Source: Deltaproteobacteria bacterium
Lineage (GTDB): Bacteria; Bdellovibrionota_B; Oligoflexia; Oligoflexales; CAIYRB01
Assembly: GCA_016874735.1 (NCBI GenBank)
Contig: VGTI01000028.1
Span: 1 to 50,178, forward strand
Reading direction: 5' to 3'
Length of the DNA: 50,178 bases
The notes beneath the pieces are model-generated. The model was not told the origin of the DNA. It saw nothing but the letters and a program-made list of their open reading frames with translations, and searched no databases. Shown one piece after another: positions 33,909 through 46,382 of this stretch; within the stretch, counting starts at the first letter, position 1, and every line of letters begins with the position of its first letter. A program made the translations under genes and the position numbers.

Positions 33909-35078
33909 ATGGGCCTACCTTTAACTGGTTGCCACAGCTACGAGCATTATGTTCAGGATTTGGCACGCGCCGAGGCTTTTTATACGAAGTCCCTTGGCTT
34001 CAAGAGAATCGGCGTCAGCACGGCCAAGGCCGAGGCTCATGACGGCATGCGCCGGTTGGTCCTCGCTGGTGGGCGCAAGATTCACGTGATCTTGTCGCAA
34101 CCTCTCAAAGACTGGTCCGTTGCCGCTAACTACCTCAGGGCGCATCCCGAGGGGATCGGTTTTCTCAACTTCCGGGTCAGCAGTCTTACCAAGGCGATCG
34201 AGTTTCTGAAGCCGCGTCGGGCGACGTTTCTGTACGATACGCAGGTGGTGCGTGACGACCAGGGTGAGCTCGCGCAGATTGCCATGGCCTCAGCATTGGA
34301 CGACGTCAACTACCGCTTGATCGATGATTCGCGTTATAACGGGTTTGGGCCGTCCTTTGAGATGCACGAGCGTGCGGGCAGCTACGAGTCACCACTCGGA
34401 TTCACCGAGATCGATCACTTCACAGCCAACGTCAGGACCTTGCAGCCGCTCACGTCGTTTTACCGCGATGTGCTTGGCTTTGAAAAGTTCTGGGATATCG
34501 AGTTCCACACCAACGACGTCAATCCTAACCTGCCTGTCGGCAGTGGGCTTTACTCCGAGGTTTACTGGCATCCGGCATCGGGCATCAAGTTCGCCAATAA
34601 CGAGCCGATTGCACCCTTTTTTCGTAACAGCCAGATTGACATCTACTGCCGTGATAACCGCGGGAGTGGTGTGCAGCATGTGGCATTGCTGGTTCCAAAC
34701 ATTCTCAAGACTATGGATAAGCTCCATGCCGAGGGCTGTAAATTCTTGGCTGCCGGCGATAGCTACTACGAGAAGGTGCCAGCGCGGCTCAAAGCTAGTG
34801 GCTTCAACGGCTCGATCCGCGAGGATATGAAAGCCCTGGCCAGCAGAGATATTCTCATCGACGGTAGCGCCAAGGGTTACTTGCTCCAAATCTTCTCTCA
34901 TGAGCTATCGCGGCAATTTGGCGATGCCAAGGCTGGCCCCCTCTTCTTTGAAGTGATTCAGCGCGAGGGTGACGAGGGTTTTGGTGGTGGCAACTTCCGT
35001 GCACTATTCGAGACCATCGAGATCGATCAGATTGCGATGCAAAAAGTGGCTTCGCAGTTACCGCTCGAGACGATATAG
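33909..35078 (+). CDS. hpd: 4-hydroxyphenylpyruvate dioxygenase
   Basis: 389 aa, typical length. Two VOC domains; the iron ligands are His 170 (EIDHFTANV), His 257 (GVQHVALLV) and Glu 348 (FFEVIQREGDEGFGGGNFRA-like signature). It turns 4-hydroxyphenylpyruvate into homogentisate in tyrosine breakdown or as a precursor of pyomelanin and quinones. GAGGAG lies 8 nt before the ATG. The next enzyme, homogentisate dioxygenase, is not in the window, so the fate of homogentisate here is open. An aromatic amino acid hydroxylase that could make tyrosine lies at 43096. Confidence 0.96.
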   Translation: MGLPLTGCHSYEHYVQDLARAEAFYTKSLGFKRIGVSTAKAEAHDGMRRLVLAGGRKIHVILSQPLKDWSVAANYLRAHPEGIGFLNFRVSSLTKAIEFLKPRRATFLYDTQVVRDDQGELAQIAMASALDDVNYRLIDDSRYNGFGPSFEMHERAGSYESPLGFTEIDHFTANVRTLQPLTSFYRDVLGFEKFWDIEFHTNDVNPNLPVGSGLYSEVYWHPASGIKFANNEPIAPFFRNSQIDIYCRDNRGSGVQHVALLVPNILKTMDKLHAEGCKFLAAGDSYYEKVPARLKASGFNGSIREDMKALASRDILIDGSAKGYLLQIFSHELSRQFGDAKAGPLFFEVIQREGDEGFGGGNFRALFETIEIDQIAMQKVASQLPLETI

Positions 35079-37529: not shown

Positions 37530-38756
37530 ATGCGTCGCGAATTACTGCTGGTGTTCATCCTTGCCGGGGTGCAGTTTTCGCACATTATTGATTTCGTGAT
37601 TATGATGCCTCTCGGTCCGCAGCTCATGCGGATGTTTGGCATCGCTCCGAGGGAGTTCGCTCTTGTGGTCTCAGTTTATACGCTGAGTGCAAGTCTGAGC
37701 TGCTTTGGGGCATCTTTTTTTATGGATAGGTTTGATCGCAAAAAGACGCTCCTTCTCGTCTACGCTGGGCTGGTGGTGGGTACTTTTGTCTGCGGTTTAG
37801 CGCCTAACTTCCCTTCACTGGTCGCAGCAAGGTCCATCACGGGTATGTTTGGTGGGCTCTTGCAGCCCATTATTCTGGCGATCATCGGTGATCTTATCCC
37901 CGAGTCCCGTCGTGGTCAGGCCACAGGCATAGTTATGGCCGCATTCGCGGTATCATCGGTGGTCGGTGTGCCTATCGGCCTCAGTCTGGCCAATAGTTTT
38001 GGCTGGCAAACGGCATTTATTACCCTCGCCGTATTTAGCGCCATGAACCTCGCGCTCGCATGGCGGCGGCTGCCACCAGTCACATCACACATCACGAAAC
38101 GTGTTCCATCTTCCGGTATGATTCACGATATGGTGGCCATATTAAAGCTACCGAATTCATGGGTAGCTTTAGTGCTGATTACCACCATGATGTCGATCTT
38201 CACGTTTACGCCCTTTGTTAGCCCATTTCTGGTGCAGATTGTTGGTATCGCTGAAGCTGACCTCCCAACCGTTTATATGTTTGGTGGCGCAGCCTCGTTC
38301 GTCGTATCGCCACTGATAGGTAGAATCGCTGATCGCTTCGGTGCAAGAAGGGTCTTTATTAGTTCGTCGGTTGTGGCGGTGCCAGCGATGCTTATCTTCA
38401 GTAACTTGCAAAAAACCAGTTTAGCCGTCGCGGTAGCCATGAATACCCTGGTGGCTGCCGTCGGTGCAGCTAGGATGACGCCGTCTCTTGCTCTTATCAA
38501 TGGCAGCGTATCCTCAGCGTTGCGCGGTCGCTTCATGACGCTGATTGCGTCTGTTCAGCAGCTTGCGGCCGCGTGCGCTTCGTTCATTGGTGGTCTGATT
38601 CTCGGTGATAGCTCCAGCGGGCTTGCGCGATTTCCCCTGCTAGGAAGCATAGTCGCCACATCGATGGTGATCTCATCGTTACTGAGTCTTTTGATCAGAA
38701 CCGAGCAGAAGACAGTCAAAAGAGGTGGTACAGAAACTAAACCCGGTAGAGATTAA
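37530..38756 (+). CDS. MFS transporter (DHA1-like)
   Basis: 408 aa with about 12 membrane helices. Motif A is present between helices 2 and 3 (FFMDRFDRKKTLLLV), and helix 5 carries VVGVPIGLSLANSFGWQ, the proton-antiporter signature region. It is probably a proton-driven exporter of small molecules; the substrate is unknown. It begins 5 nt after the PilZ gene with a weak ribosome binding site, so coupling is likely. The last 20 bases overlap the convergent lipoprotein gene. Confidence 0.88.
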   Translation: MRRELLLVFILAGVQFSHIIDFVIMMPLGPQLMRMFGIAPREFALVVSVYTLSASLSCFGASFFMDRFDRKKTLLLVYAGLVVGTFVCGLAPNFPSLVAARSITGMFGGLLQPIILAIIGDLIPESRRGQATGIVMAAFAVSSVVGVPIGLSLANSFGWQTAFITLAVFSAMNLALAWRRLPPVTSHITKRVPSSGMIHDMVAILKLPNSWVALVLITTMMSIFTFTPFVSPFLVQIVGIAEADLPTVYMFGGAASFVVSPLIGRIADRFGARRVFISSSVVAVPAMLIFSNLQKTSLAVAVAMNTLVAAVGAARMTPSLALINGSVSSALRGRFMTLIASVQQLAAACASFIGGLILGDSSSGLARFPLLGSIVATSMVISSLLSLLIRTEQKTVKRGGTETKPGRD

Positions 38757-42351: not shown

Positions 42352-42924
42352 TCAAGAACCCGATGCCATGCGCCACGCGAGAATCTCCAGCTGATCGTGG
42401 GTGGCTTTATCGAATTTGATCAATCCAGCCTCGGAGGCTTTAAAGACCTGCACGTAGCTACCAAACGTCGCGGATATGACCAGTTGCGCCTGATCTCTCG
42501 TGTGGCCTAGCTGAATCCGATCTTGGTAGTAGCTAATCAGGGAGTCGTTTAGATCACGTTCGAGCTTGATCGAGGCCTCGTCGAGGTAGGTGGCGTGCAG
42601 CTGGGCCTCCAGGAAACCGAAGGCCTTAGGATGCTTCGTGATGTAGCGTGCGATATTAGTCCAGACCATCCGGTGCGCGGCCCGGCCGGTGACGTCCGCT
42701 GTGCCTTCGGCAACAAAATTGGCAAACTGCAGCTTCCAGTGGCGGAAGAGCTCATTGACTAGCTCCTCCTTGCTGCGGAAGTAAGTGTATAGCGACCCAA
42801 GTGAGATCTCGCAGCTACCGGCTAGGTCTTTGATGGAGGCGGCATGAAATCCACGTGCCGCGAATTGCTCCAGGGCAGCCCCTAATATGAGCGCGCGGCG
42901 ATCGGGATCTTTAAGTCTGGCCAT
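42352..42924 (-). CDS. TetR family repressor
   Basis: 190 aa. The N-terminal helix-turn-helix is typical (ALEQFAARGFHAASIKDLAG with SLGSLYTYFRSKEELV); the C-terminal ligand domain is unassigned. It is divergent from the hydroxylase operon at 43096, and the space between them carries matching half-sites at 43051-43068 and about 42939-42957, so it probably represses both. Its ligand is likely a substrate or product of that operon, which is inference. The ribosome binding site (AGGTAGG) is weak. Confidence 0.92.
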   Translation of the reverse strand: MARLKDPDRRALILGAALEQFAARGFHAASIKDLAGSCEISLGSLYTYFRSKEELVNELFRHWKLQFANFVAEGTADVTGRAAHRMVWTNIARYITKHPKAFGFLEAQLHATYLDEASIKLERDLNDSLISYYQDRIQLGHTRDQAQLVISATFGSYVQVFKASEAGLIKFDKATHDQLEILAWRMASGS

Positions 42925-43022
42925 GACCTACCTGGCGAAAATGAGTGAACAAACAATCATGAATATCTTCTTATATTAAAGTTCAGCATGTATTTCAAGA
43001 ACGATAATATTAAAAAATCTTG

Positions 43023-43068
43023 TTGACCTGCCGCATCCTCTGCAATAATAAATGAGCGTTCGTTCATT
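43023..43068 (+). promoter_or_regulatory. promoter and TetR-type operator of the hydroxylase operon
   Basis: TTGACC (43023-43028) and AATAAT (43044-43049; spacer 15 nt, short) form a candidate promoter. AATGAGCGTTCGTTCATT (43051-43068) is an imperfect 18-bp palindrome (14 of 18 positions symmetric) just after the -10 box, where repressor binding would block transcription. A related AATGAGTGA half-site lies near 42939-42949, close to the TetR start. Confidence 0.6.
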
Positions 43069-43095
43069 TTAGAGCGAGTTGAGGGCGGATACAGT

Positions 43096-43971
43096 ATGGG
43101 TGCGACTACACCAACGCGGCAATTCAGCAGTGCCGATCATGAGACATGGCGGCGCTTTCATGAGGGTTTTTTCGCAAGCCTTCCCGATTTTGAGGCGTCC
43201 TTGCACCCGTTTTATAAGTCCGGCCTGAGCGTGCTCAGAGACCTAGGCGGGTGTGTGCCGTCCCTCGGACTGATTCAGGAGTTGCTTGCCCCCCAAGGCT
43301 GGACGGCCTGCTATGTGGACGGTTACATCGAGCCCTGGCGGGTGGCCCAACTCATCGCCGCACGCGTGATGCCCATCTCGAGTGCCGTAAGGCCTGCCGA
43401 TGAGCTCTACTTTGCCCGGGAGCCTGACCTCATCCACGATCTTTTTGGCCACTTGCCGAGTCTGCTCAATCCAGAATACCGCCGCCTTTTAACTGTCTGG
43501 AGTCGCGTAGCGAGTATGGCGGCTATCACGCCGCTCGATCGGGCGCTCTTTCATGTAAACAAAAGTAAGGTCAGGATGCACGAGGGTACCGAAGCGGAGC
43601 CACTTGAGCATCTCGATGCGGCGCTAGCTGCCTTTGACGTTGCCTTTGCGGCCAGCCCTACGCCGTTTCATTTGGTCGATAAGCTTTATTTCTGGATCTT
43701 TGAATTCGGTCTTTTAAAGCAAGACGACGGATTTGCCGTCATGGGTGCCGGGCTAATCAGCTCACTGAGTGAGTTACGAAATTTTACGCACCGAAGAGTG
43801 ATAGAGATAGAGACAGCTCCCATCACTATTGATTCCGTGCTGAAGCCTTATGCCATCGCCAATGAGCAGACCTCCTATCTCGCAGCGCGATCCGTCAATG
43901 ATTTTTACCGCATCATCAATCAGGCGATGAGTCGCATGGGTGACTTAAAGGGTCGGGGGTTATGCGCATGA
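43096..43971 (+). CDS. aromatic amino acid hydroxylase (phenylalanine 4-monooxygenase-like)
   Basis: 291 aa, close to bacterial PhhA size. Iron ligands match the family: PDLIHDLFGHLP gives His 114 and His 119, and LYFWIFEFGLL gives Glu 203. It should hydroxylate an aromatic amino acid with pterin and oxygen; phenylalanine to tyrosine is the default, but tryptophan or another ring cannot be excluded. No pterin recycling gene is next to it, and its partners are unusual for a catabolic phhA. GAGGG lies 13 nt before the ATG (weak spacing). Its stop overlaps the next start (ATGA at 43968). Confidence 0.9.
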   Translation: MGATTPTRQFSSADHETWRRFHEGFFASLPDFEASLHPFYKSGLSVLRDLGGCVPSLGLIQELLAPQGWTACYVDGYIEPWRVAQLIAARVMPISSAVRPADELYFAREPDLIHDLFGHLPSLLNPEYRRLLTVWSRVASMAAITPLDRALFHVNKSKVRMHEGTEAEPLEHLDAALAAFDVAFAASPTPFHLVDKLYFWIFEFGLLKQDDGFAVMGAGLISSLSELRNFTHRRVIEIETAPITIDSVLKPYAIANEQTSYLAARSVNDFYRIINQAMSRMGDLKGRGLCA

Positions 43972-45152
43972 CAGGCAAAAGAGGCATCGTCATCGGTGCA
44001 GGTATAGGCGGTATCGCTAGTGGCATCGCGCTCGCTCTGAAGGGTCTCGAGGTCGCCATTTTTGAGTCGAGAAATGAGGTCGTTGAAGCCGATCACCTCC
44101 TGTGGATTGCTCCTAACGGGCTCGGTGCGATGGAGCAACTCGGTATTTTAGATGCCGTGATGCAGGTAGCGACACCGCAGGAGATCATGGGGTTTACTAC
44201 GTCACAGCAGCGGCCGTTAATGTCCCTCCTAGGAGGCGATCTGGCCGCTAGCTTGAACCATCCAATCGTCGCGGTGCGGCGTCGCGATCTCATGCAGATC
44301 CTTTTCAAACGCCTTTATAGCCTTGGGGGCAAAATCGCATTTGGCCACAAACTGACTCATGTGAGCGACGACCCGAGATCTGTCACTGTGACATTTGCCA
44401 ATGGTCTACGCAGTACGGCTGACTTCATCATCGGCGCTGACGGCATGGGATCACGCGTGCGCGGTTTTGTCGCCGGATCTGCACGGGTTCGCTATCAGGG
44501 ACTCCGGACTTGGTTGGGGTATAGCGACCTCCCATGTGCCGCAAACTATGTCGGTAAGACTCTGGAACTTTGGGGAGTAGGGACCAGGTTTGTTTTGACC
44601 TCCCTCGATGGCAAGCGCCTTTACTGGAGTGCCCTTGAGCGTCACCCTAGCTACGAGTCATCGCGCGATCATGATCCAGACTCTGTTATCAAGCGACTGC
44701 GTGAACTATTTGCTGATTATCATTCTGATGTAGTTGCGGCCCTTGCGTCTGCACAGGTTGAGAGTTTCAGACTGAGTAATTTCAGTGTGGTCGAGGAATT
44801 AAAAGCAAGTTACCGCGGGCGCTTGTTACTCATTGGTGACGCCAGTCATGGGATGCCGCCCAACATGGGGCAGGGTGCATCACTCGCCCTCGAGGACGCT
44901 ATTTGGGCGGCCGCACTATGCTCGTCCTACGATGACGTGGCAGAAGCATGGGCACAGTTTGACCGTGTGAGGAAGTCTCGGGTTCTTGAGATGATGAAAC
45001 TAGCAAATTTTATGAATACCGCATTTCAACCCAAATCATCCGCAGCGAGTGGGCTACGCAACATGGTAGCCGCGATGATTCCGGATGCCCTAACTGCGCG
45101 TCGCATGATCCAGCTTTATGCATCCGCTCTCCCGAGGCCAATCTATGACTAG
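43968..45152 (+). CDS. FAD-dependent monooxygenase (aromatic hydroxylase type)
   Basis: 394 aa. All three flavoprotein monooxygenase motifs are present: GAGIGGIASG near the N-terminus, GADGMGSRVR mid-protein, and LLIGDASHGMPPNMGQGASL near residue 290. The C-terminus has a hydrophobic patch (GLRNMVAAMIPDAL). It is a group A flavin monooxygenase that hydroxylates or epoxidises a small ring compound using NAD(P)H and oxygen. It overlaps the hydroxylase by 4 bases and the next gene by 8, so it belongs to the same pathway. An in-frame ATG at 43962 is an alternative start. Confidence 0.9.
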   Translation: MTGKRGIVIGAGIGGIASGIALALKGLEVAIFESRNEVVEADHLLWIAPNGLGAMEQLGILDAVMQVATPQEIMGFTTSQQRPLMSLLGGDLAASLNHPIVAVRRRDLMQILFKRLYSLGGKIAFGHKLTHVSDDPRSVTVTFANGLRSTADFIIGADGMGSRVRGFVAGSARVRYQGLRTWLGYSDLPCAANYVGKTLELWGVGTRFVLTSLDGKRLYWSALERHPSYESSRDHDPDSVIKRLRELFADYHSDVVAALASAQVESFRLSNFSVVEELKASYRGRLLLIGDASHGMPPNMGQGASLALEDAIWAAALCSSYDDVAEAWAQFDRVRKSRVLEMMKLANFMNTAFQPKSSAASGLRNMVAAMIPDALTARRMIQLYASALPRPIYD

Positions 45153-45849
45153 GATATTTCTCGCAATACTCCGGGCATTTTTTCGCCTACGTATGACGGT
45201 GCGTCCCATTGCACCCGGCGACACCGAGGCGGTCGCGCGATTACTCGCGGAACAATTTGCGTACCGAGAACCTCTGACGAGACAGCTAGGACTGAGCTCG
45301 CAGGAATTATTGCCACTGATCAGTGCCCACATTGATTACTGCGCTCAAGGCAAACTAGGGGTAGTTGCGCATAGTCATGGCGGTACACTACTCGGTGTCA
45401 TCACTGCAGAGGACGATTTCCGACCATTCGTGCCGCCAGAGGATCTGCTGACGCCGCGACTGCGAATGGTCGGGGACGTACTCGGACGCGTATCCTTGCC
45501 AAATGCATGGATACCGCAGTCAGAACGTGAATTATTCTACTGTGACTTGGCTGCTACAGATCCGCAGTACGCCGATAAACATGTGCTAGCAGCTCTCACA
45601 CTTGGGATCTTCGATCACCTATCGGCCATGGGTTTTAAACGCGGGTACGCCAAAGTGACCAACGAGCGCATGATGGCGCGCCTCCGTGGGTTTGAACGTC
45701 TGCTGTGGCGACCTATATTCACCGAACTTTGCCGCCAACGGAGTGCCGCAGGCAGTGAGGTCATTGCCGTCGGTTGGTCACTTGATTTCTGGCAATCGCG
45801 TTTCAAAGCGCGAGTTTCATCCATAAACTTCGGGGAGAAAAAGAGATGA
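45145..45849 (+). CDS. GNAT-like acyltransferase
   Basis: 234 aa. A hydrophobic, basic N-terminus (FLAILRAFFRLRMTV) may touch the membrane. The body resembles a GNAT fold: TVRPIAPGDTEAVARLLAEQ at the start, a central strand GVVAHSHGGTLLGVITAED, and the acyl-CoA region FYCDLAATDPQYADKHVLAA with no classical QxxGxG/A. The assignment is by pattern and is moderate. Co-translation with the two oxygenases (8-base overlap upstream, 4-base overlap downstream) suggests it modifies their product. GAGG lies 7 nt before the ATG at 45145. Confidence 0.7.
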   Translation: MTRIFLAILRAFFRLRMTVRPIAPGDTEAVARLLAEQFAYREPLTRQLGLSSQELLPLISAHIDYCAQGKLGVVAHSHGGTLLGVITAEDDFRPFVPPEDLLTPRLRMVGDVLGRVSLPNAWIPQSERELFYCDLAATDPQYADKHVLAALTLGIFDHLSAMGFKRGYAKVTNERMMARLRGFERLLWRPIFTELCRQRSAAGSEVIAVGWSLDFWQSRFKARVSSINFGEKKR

Positions 45850-46382
45850 TCAGGAAACTAGTTTGTAGTGCATTTCTGTTTGTAGCAGGATTTGGGACTA
45901 TCGCTCAGGCTGGGATTCTCCCGACCGTAGTGTCCGAGATCGATGTCAATAAGTACATGGGCAAGTGGTACCAGGTGGCCTCGACGAACCCATTTTTTCA
46001 AGCGAATTGCGTCTGTGCCACGGCCACTTACACACTGCGCGATGACGGCAACGTGGATGTCGTCAATAGTTGCCGCCGTGATACGGTGGATGGTGCCCTT
46101 AGTGACGTTAAAGGCATCGCCTACGCGACGTCAAATCCAGGTAAATTAAATGTAGTCTTCGGTGGCATTAAACTACCTGGATCAAACTACTGGATTATCG
46201 AAGTAGCTGATGATTACTCGTACGCAGTCGTTTCATCGCCACTGCGTCGTCCTATTTGGATACTTGCGAGGACACCAGAGTTGCCAACTGACACATTGGA
46301 CGGGATCTACAAAAGGCTTGATGCCCAGGGGTTTCCAGTGAATGCGATCGTGCCTACTTTACAGACTGGATGCAACAACTAA
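45846..46382 (+). CDS. blc: secreted bacterial lipocalin (Blc-like)
   Basis: 178 aa. A cleavable signal (CSAFLFVAGFGTIAQA) is followed by the lipocalin GxW motif (DVNKYMGKWYQVAS) and the bacterial lipocalin signature (NYWIIEVADDYSYAVVSSPL, RPIWILAR). No lipobox is present: the signal ends AQA|G, so it is probably periplasmic and soluble, whereas E. coli Blc is an outer-membrane lipoprotein. Cysteines in NCVCAT and TGCNN could form disulfides. It binds a hydrophobic ligand, plausibly the product of the operon. It closes the four-gene unit through an ATGA overlap. Confidence 0.92.
   Translation: MIRKLVCSAFLFVAGFGTIAQAGILPTVVSEIDVNKYMGKWYQVASTNPFFQANCVCATATYTLRDDGNVDVVNSCRRDTVDGALSDVKGIAYATSNPGKLNVVFGGIKLPGSNYWIIEVADDYSYAVVSSPLRRPIWILARTPELPTDTLDGIYKRLDAQGFPVNAIVPTLQTGCNN

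Follow-up and report, generated by a model that had tools for sequence, protein, structure and literature searches.

Animals make serotonin and melatonin with a tryptophan hydroxylase (TPH), an aromatic amino acid decarboxylase (AADC) and an arylalkylamine N-acetyltransferase (AANAT). For bacteria, the authors of a 2022 review stated that they knew of no described tryptophan hydroxylase gene (PMC9048412), and a passage of a 2025 review on microbial melatonin assigns this step to phenylalanine 4-hydroxylase (PMC12452222). The two kinds of hydroxylase differ at a selectivity site, occupied by Trp in the phenylalanine enzymes and by Phe in the tryptophan enzymes (PMC11885754). In the Xanthomonas phenylalanine hydroxylase XcPAH the equivalent residue is W179 and the iron ligand is E183; the W179F variant yields 190 mg/L of 5-hydroxytryptophan versus 0 for the wild type, and W179I, W179L and W179M produce none (PMC11885754). 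On the acyltransferase side, the Glu of the DEPLN motif is the general base in most insect-type enzymes (iAANATs) tested (PMC6070697).

The locus described here occupies positions 42352-46382 of the window (the whole 50,178-nucleotide stretch analysed) and is best read as a TetR-repressed operon that would make an N-acylated hydroxyarylalkylamine, most likely from tryptophan. A TetR-family regulator gene (42352-42924, minus strand; TetR_N and TetR_C_10) diverges from four overlapping plus-strand genes. The TetR_N, Biopterin_H, FAD_binding_3 and Lipocalin_2 matches each exceed the Pfam cut-offs. An earlier note on this DNA had described four genes overlapping by 4, 8 and 4 bases behind a promoter with a palindromic operator, and re-reading the gene layout confirms this arrangement; the overlaps assume starts at 43968, 45145 and 45846, and the longer reading frame starting at 43962 gives 10 bp instead. 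All five genes are present in the same order and orientation in a congener (G004), with 65-87% identity (87% for the regulator). The promoter (43023-43051, plus strand) consists of TTGACC, a 17-bp spacer and TAATAA, and the operator candidate AAATGAGCGTTCGTTCATTT (43050-43069) lies directly downstream of the -10 element. The intergenic alignment with G004 shows conservation of both hexamers, of their spacing and of the palindrome but divergence of the spacer sequence, and the G004 copy of the palindrome is near-perfect (11/12 pairs). Taken alone, the palindrome score in the window is not significant (115 of 300 shuffles were equally good), so the site is proposed as an operator because of its conservation. 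Its pattern has a single exact match genome-wide, at 43050-43069, and no Rfam element was found near the operon. An MFS exporter gene (37530-38756, plus strand), nearest to the myxochelin exporter MxcK at a score below the cut-off, lies near the cassette in the window genome and also in G004 (75% identity), and may thus serve as a product exporter. A 4-hydroxyphenylpyruvate dioxygenase-like gene (33909-35078, plus strand; TIGR01263, 239.6 bits, under the cut-off of 277) lies upstream at a distance of about 8 kb; it belongs to tyrosine breakdown and has no link to the operon.

The earlier note had taken a lack of co-occurrence of the four genes in other genomes as grounds for refutation, and three of the four do co-occur. 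Among 56 related genomes, the eight with a hydroxylase of this clade are also the eight with the acyltransferase, and the two genes are adjacent every time; the FAD monooxygenase (FMO) co-occurs with them in other genomes as well, and the lipocalin falls outside the conserved set. If the two genes were distributed independently, two identical sets of eight would arise about once in 1.4 billion, an arithmetic figure that is uncorrected for kinship. The cassette hydroxylases show 37-74% identity, and the cassettes take four forms: hydroxylase-FMO-GNAT-lipocalin with TetR (the window genome, G000, and G004), hydroxylase-FMO-GNAT (G002, G030), hydroxylase-decarboxylase-FMO-GNAT (G001, G003), and MarR-hydroxylase-decarboxylase-GNAT (G038, G024). 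G004 also carries a second FMO-GNAT pair, ~60% identical to that of the window, on a 3-kb contig (L016, G004:C36). The phylum-level search comprised 58 genomes, and a single scan of a collection of 84,980 genomes returned one close relative only. Among plasmids, the acyltransferase had no match and the hydroxylase had only distant relatives (22-26% identity), mostly annotated as phhA.

The first operon gene (43096-43971, plus strand) encodes a 291-aa pterin-dependent aromatic amino acid hydroxylase (Biopterin_H, PF00351), the proposed tryptophan 5-hydroxylase. Its iron ligands H114, H119 and E203 (2-His-1-Glu) are aligned and invariant, and the known residues of the pocket are also kept. Four residues before the Glu ligand, at Phe199 in the window enzyme, all eight cassette hydroxylases have Phe, whereas Trp is found in all 24 others compared: 14 long enzymes (including the window genome's paralog), seven short ones of the phylum and three PhhA proteins from other classes. 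Phe at this site may permit tryptophan here as it does in the engineered enzymes, the comparison bearing on a single site and not on the full pocket. The seven intact cassette hydroxylases form one clade in the tree (support 100/100), the depth of which is unsure because the branch lengths are long. The G024 copy (L018:10819-11505) lacks the first iron-ligand His owing to an internal deletion, which reflects either decay or an assembly fault. The window enzyme scores 53.9 bits against the TPH equivalog TIGR01270 (cut-off 705.5), and 103.5 and 71.9 against the PhhA models PRK11913 (247) and TIGR01267 (264.75). Falling below both kinds of model, it belongs to no curated subfamily and would be TPH-like in its working rather than a TPH member. 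A separate Trp-type hydroxylase is encoded among pterin genes on contig C6 of the same genome, which makes it unlikely that the operon enzyme acts only in phenylalanine breakdown, a possibility that had been raised beforehand. At that locus (L023:6190-9176), the gene for a long hydroxylase (587-591 aa) precedes those for 6-pyruvoyl-tetrahydropterin synthase and an SDR reductase; the locus is likely a tetrahydropterin-making operon, and the cofactor is thus probably made. A search of the window genome for pterin-4a-carbinolamine dehydratase found none.

The second gene (43968-45152, plus strand) encodes the FMO, a class A enzyme of 394 aa (FAD_binding_3). It is present in six of the eight cassettes and absent from two, and orthologs at E <1e-40 occur only in the six genomes whose cassettes contain it. 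Its closest solved relatives are the urate hydroxylase HpxO, 6-hydroxynicotinate 3-monooxygenase and salicylate hydroxylases; since these act on hydroxylated or heteroaromatic rings, a second ring hydroxylation is the natural guess for its role.

Four cassettes (G001, G003, G038 and G024) encode a 495-aa PLP decarboxylase (PF00282), the closest solved relative of which is 4obu (203 bits, versus 152 for the next), the tryptophan decarboxylase of Ruminococcus gnavus (PMC6411801). The window operon has no linked decarboxylase; an animal-type aromatic decarboxylase of 503 aa (human AADC, E 1.7e-82), carrying the SDQSH and SKWF motifs, is encoded on contig C13 of the same genome. Orthologs of this enzyme (69-80% identity) are found in G004, G002 and G030, the remaining cassette genomes without a linked decarboxylase, and are missing from the four genomes with a cassette-encoded one (4/4 versus 0/4). 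This complementarity is suggestive, not strong, given the kinship of the eight genomes. Two genomes that lack the cassette have the animal-type enzyme too: G022 (62% identity) and G005, where it is split over two frames (L096:796-2233), possibly because the gene decayed once the pathway was lost, or else through a sequencing error.

The product of the third gene (45145-45849, plus strand) is a GNAT-fold protein of 234 aa with no Pfam or NCBIfam match. Compared with the PDB, a profile of eight homologs places a mosquito arylalkylamine N-acetyltransferase (4fd5) first at E 0.005, followed at non-significant E-values by a viral polyamine acetyltransferase and the Drosophila dopamine N-acetyltransferase. 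An AlphaFold model from the eight-row alignment reaches pLDDT 86 and pTM 0.82 (the single-sequence model, at pLDDT 44, is unusable), and in a Foldseek search with it ranks 1-9 are taken by the amine-condensation domain of Ebony and by dopamine N-acetyltransferases. Identity to the insect enzymes in structural alignments is 10-16%. Glu42, within a REPL motif, is invariant and in the alignment occupies the position of the Glu in the insect (D/A)EPLN motif. The profile and the predicted fold match an arylalkylamine N-acyltransferase of the insect kind, with a putative arylalkylamine as substrate. FeeM-type N-acyl amino acid synthesis was also considered and found no support, as the best 50 fold matches include no FeeM structure and no profile match is significant: the window protein does not match the FeeM family PF21926, and one homolog gives a sub-threshold match (E 0.086; 13.1 versus 27 bits). 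In G044, G051 and G030 distant relatives of the acyltransferase are encoded next to decarboxylases, and in G023 such a relative and a decarboxylase are fused, which supports an amine acceptor. The fusion in G023 (L058:108-2021) is a single 637-aa protein comprising an AANAT-like GNAT and a PLP decarboxylase. In G044 (L064) and G051 (L065), a 2OG-Fe(II) oxygenase with a WelO5-like match lies beside an aromatic-type decarboxylase and AANAT-like GNATs; these two clusters parallel the cassette in grouping a hydroxylase with a decarboxylase and an acyltransferase, their oxygenase being of another type.

The last gene (45846-46382, plus strand) encodes a Blc/ApoD-type lipocalin of 178 aa (Lipocalin_2) with a signal peptide recognizable by eye and no lipobox Cys. 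G004 and the window genome are the only two in which it belongs to the operon. Four congeners, G001, G002, G003 and G005, have orthologs (63-65% identity) that lie by themselves in varied surroundings, and G005 has no cassette; a role as core partner was therefore rejected. The lipocalin probably joined the operon in the line shared by these two genomes, G004 and that of the window, and is no evidence for the chemistry of the pathway. It is thus probably a late, optional addition.

Taken together, these features fit a route from tryptophan through 5-hydroxytryptophan and serotonin to an N-acylserotonin, for which we estimate a probability of about 0.5, the substrates and product being inferred. 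The hydroxylase, using tetrahydropterin, iron and O2, would convert tryptophan to 5-hydroxytryptophan, as Phe199 suggests. A PLP decarboxylase would then form serotonin, acting in trans in the window genome (the animal-AADC type on C13) and from within the cassette in four related ones. The GNAT enzyme would acylate the amine with acetyl- or another acyl-CoA to give N-acylserotonin, and the FMO may add another oxygen to the ring, either ahead of acylation or following it. The signal for TetR is probably the product, a precursor or some related aromatic, binding of which would free the 43050-43069 site. The lipocalin is co-expressed in the window operon and would not be essential to the pathway. 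An amine is the likelier acceptor than an amino acid because the acyltransferase is of the arylalkylamine type and half of the cassettes encode a decarboxylase. The small regulated pathway envisaged earlier is supported as regards hydroxylation and acylation of an aromatic amino acid derivative, and is not supported as regards acylation of the amino acid itself. The broader proposition, that a dedicated clade of bacterial tryptophan hydroxylases, a decarboxylase and an insect-type AANAT together form a native N-acylserotonin pathway, mostly with further oxidation of the product and under TetR or MarR control, is put forward tentatively, at slightly less than even odds.

Amines derived from tyrosine or phenylalanine would suit the acyltransferase and the decarboxylases equally well. 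The cassette might thus hydroxylate phenylalanine or tyrosine, decarboxylate the product to tyramine or dopamine, with the FMO making the catechol, and N-acylate the amine, as happens in the chemistry of insect cuticle and of N-acetyldopamine. The folds closest to the acyltransferase are those of dopamine-acting enzymes, animal AADC and insect AANATs accept catecholamines, and class A FAD monooxygenases of the FMO's kind hydroxylate phenols. However, the cassette hydroxylases uniformly have Phe where the compared phenylalanine hydroxylases have Trp, phenylalanine is already covered by the separate Trp-type enzyme, and the decarboxylase of the cassettes has a tryptophan decarboxylase as its closest solved relative, though that enzyme takes phenylalanine too. 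We consider this alternative, the chief competitor of the indole route, rather unlikely.

Two further readings are improbable. The absence of a decarboxylase from the window operon, the presence of a lipocalin within it and the sub-threshold FeeM match of one homolog would all suit synthesis of an N-acyl aromatic amino acid, made as by FeeM with no decarboxylation and passed to the lipocalin as the earlier note proposed; this is countered by the arylalkylamine enzymes heading the 50 best fold matches, by the decarboxylase in four of eight cassettes and by the poor conservation of the lipocalin with the gene set. Slightly less probable still is a role in detoxifying or breaking down an aromatic amine or amino acid from the environment, in which TetR would sense the compound, the oxygenases would open it to breakdown and the GNAT would inactivate it. 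The TetR control, the single operon with an exported lipocalin and the dioxygenase-like gene 8 kb away speak for this reading. Against it, neither the operon nor the seven related cassettes contain ring-cleavage or further catabolic genes, and acylated compounds are usually end products that do not feed into central metabolism. The N-acylserotonin route remains the preferred reading. If confirmed, the cassette hydroxylase would rank among the first bacterial enzymes dedicated to tryptophan hydroxylation, and the cassette would bear on the bacterial route to serotonin-like amines and on the origin of the animal pathway's parts. The gene set is compact, each step can be assayed, and the natural enzymes are of interest for 5-hydroxytryptophan production.

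The animal serotonin/melatonin pathway employs enzymes of the same types, and its steps follow the same logic. Its TPH has Phe at the selectivity site, as do the cassette hydroxylases, the insect acyltransferase is DEPL-type, as here, and the window genome, too, encodes an aromatic amino acid decarboxylase (on C13). Here, in contrast, the genes form a bacterial operon with putative substrates, an extra FMO in six of eight cassettes and a decarboxylase that is sometimes unlinked; the operon and cassettes contain no N-acetylserotonin O-methyltransferase. The cassette acyltransferase has the predicted fold and catalytic Glu motif in common with iAANATs and the Ebony condensation domain but differs in its low identity and in having EPL(T/C)R instead of DEPLN. 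Bacterial PhhA phenylalanine 4-hydroxylases (Chromobacterium, Xanthomonas, Legionella) share family, size (~290 aa), iron ligands and several pocket residues with the cassette hydroxylases, which form a separate clade, have Phe instead of Trp and lie away from phenylalanine catabolic genes. The R. gnavus tryptophan decarboxylase is a stand-alone gene, whereas its relatives here sit in four cassettes, the window operon having none. The Fee cluster, with the N-acyl tyrosine synthase FeeM, likewise combines a GNAT-fold acyltransferase and a FAD monooxygenase; the present set differs from it in lacking a significant FeeM match and in being accompanied by a decarboxylase in half of the cassettes.
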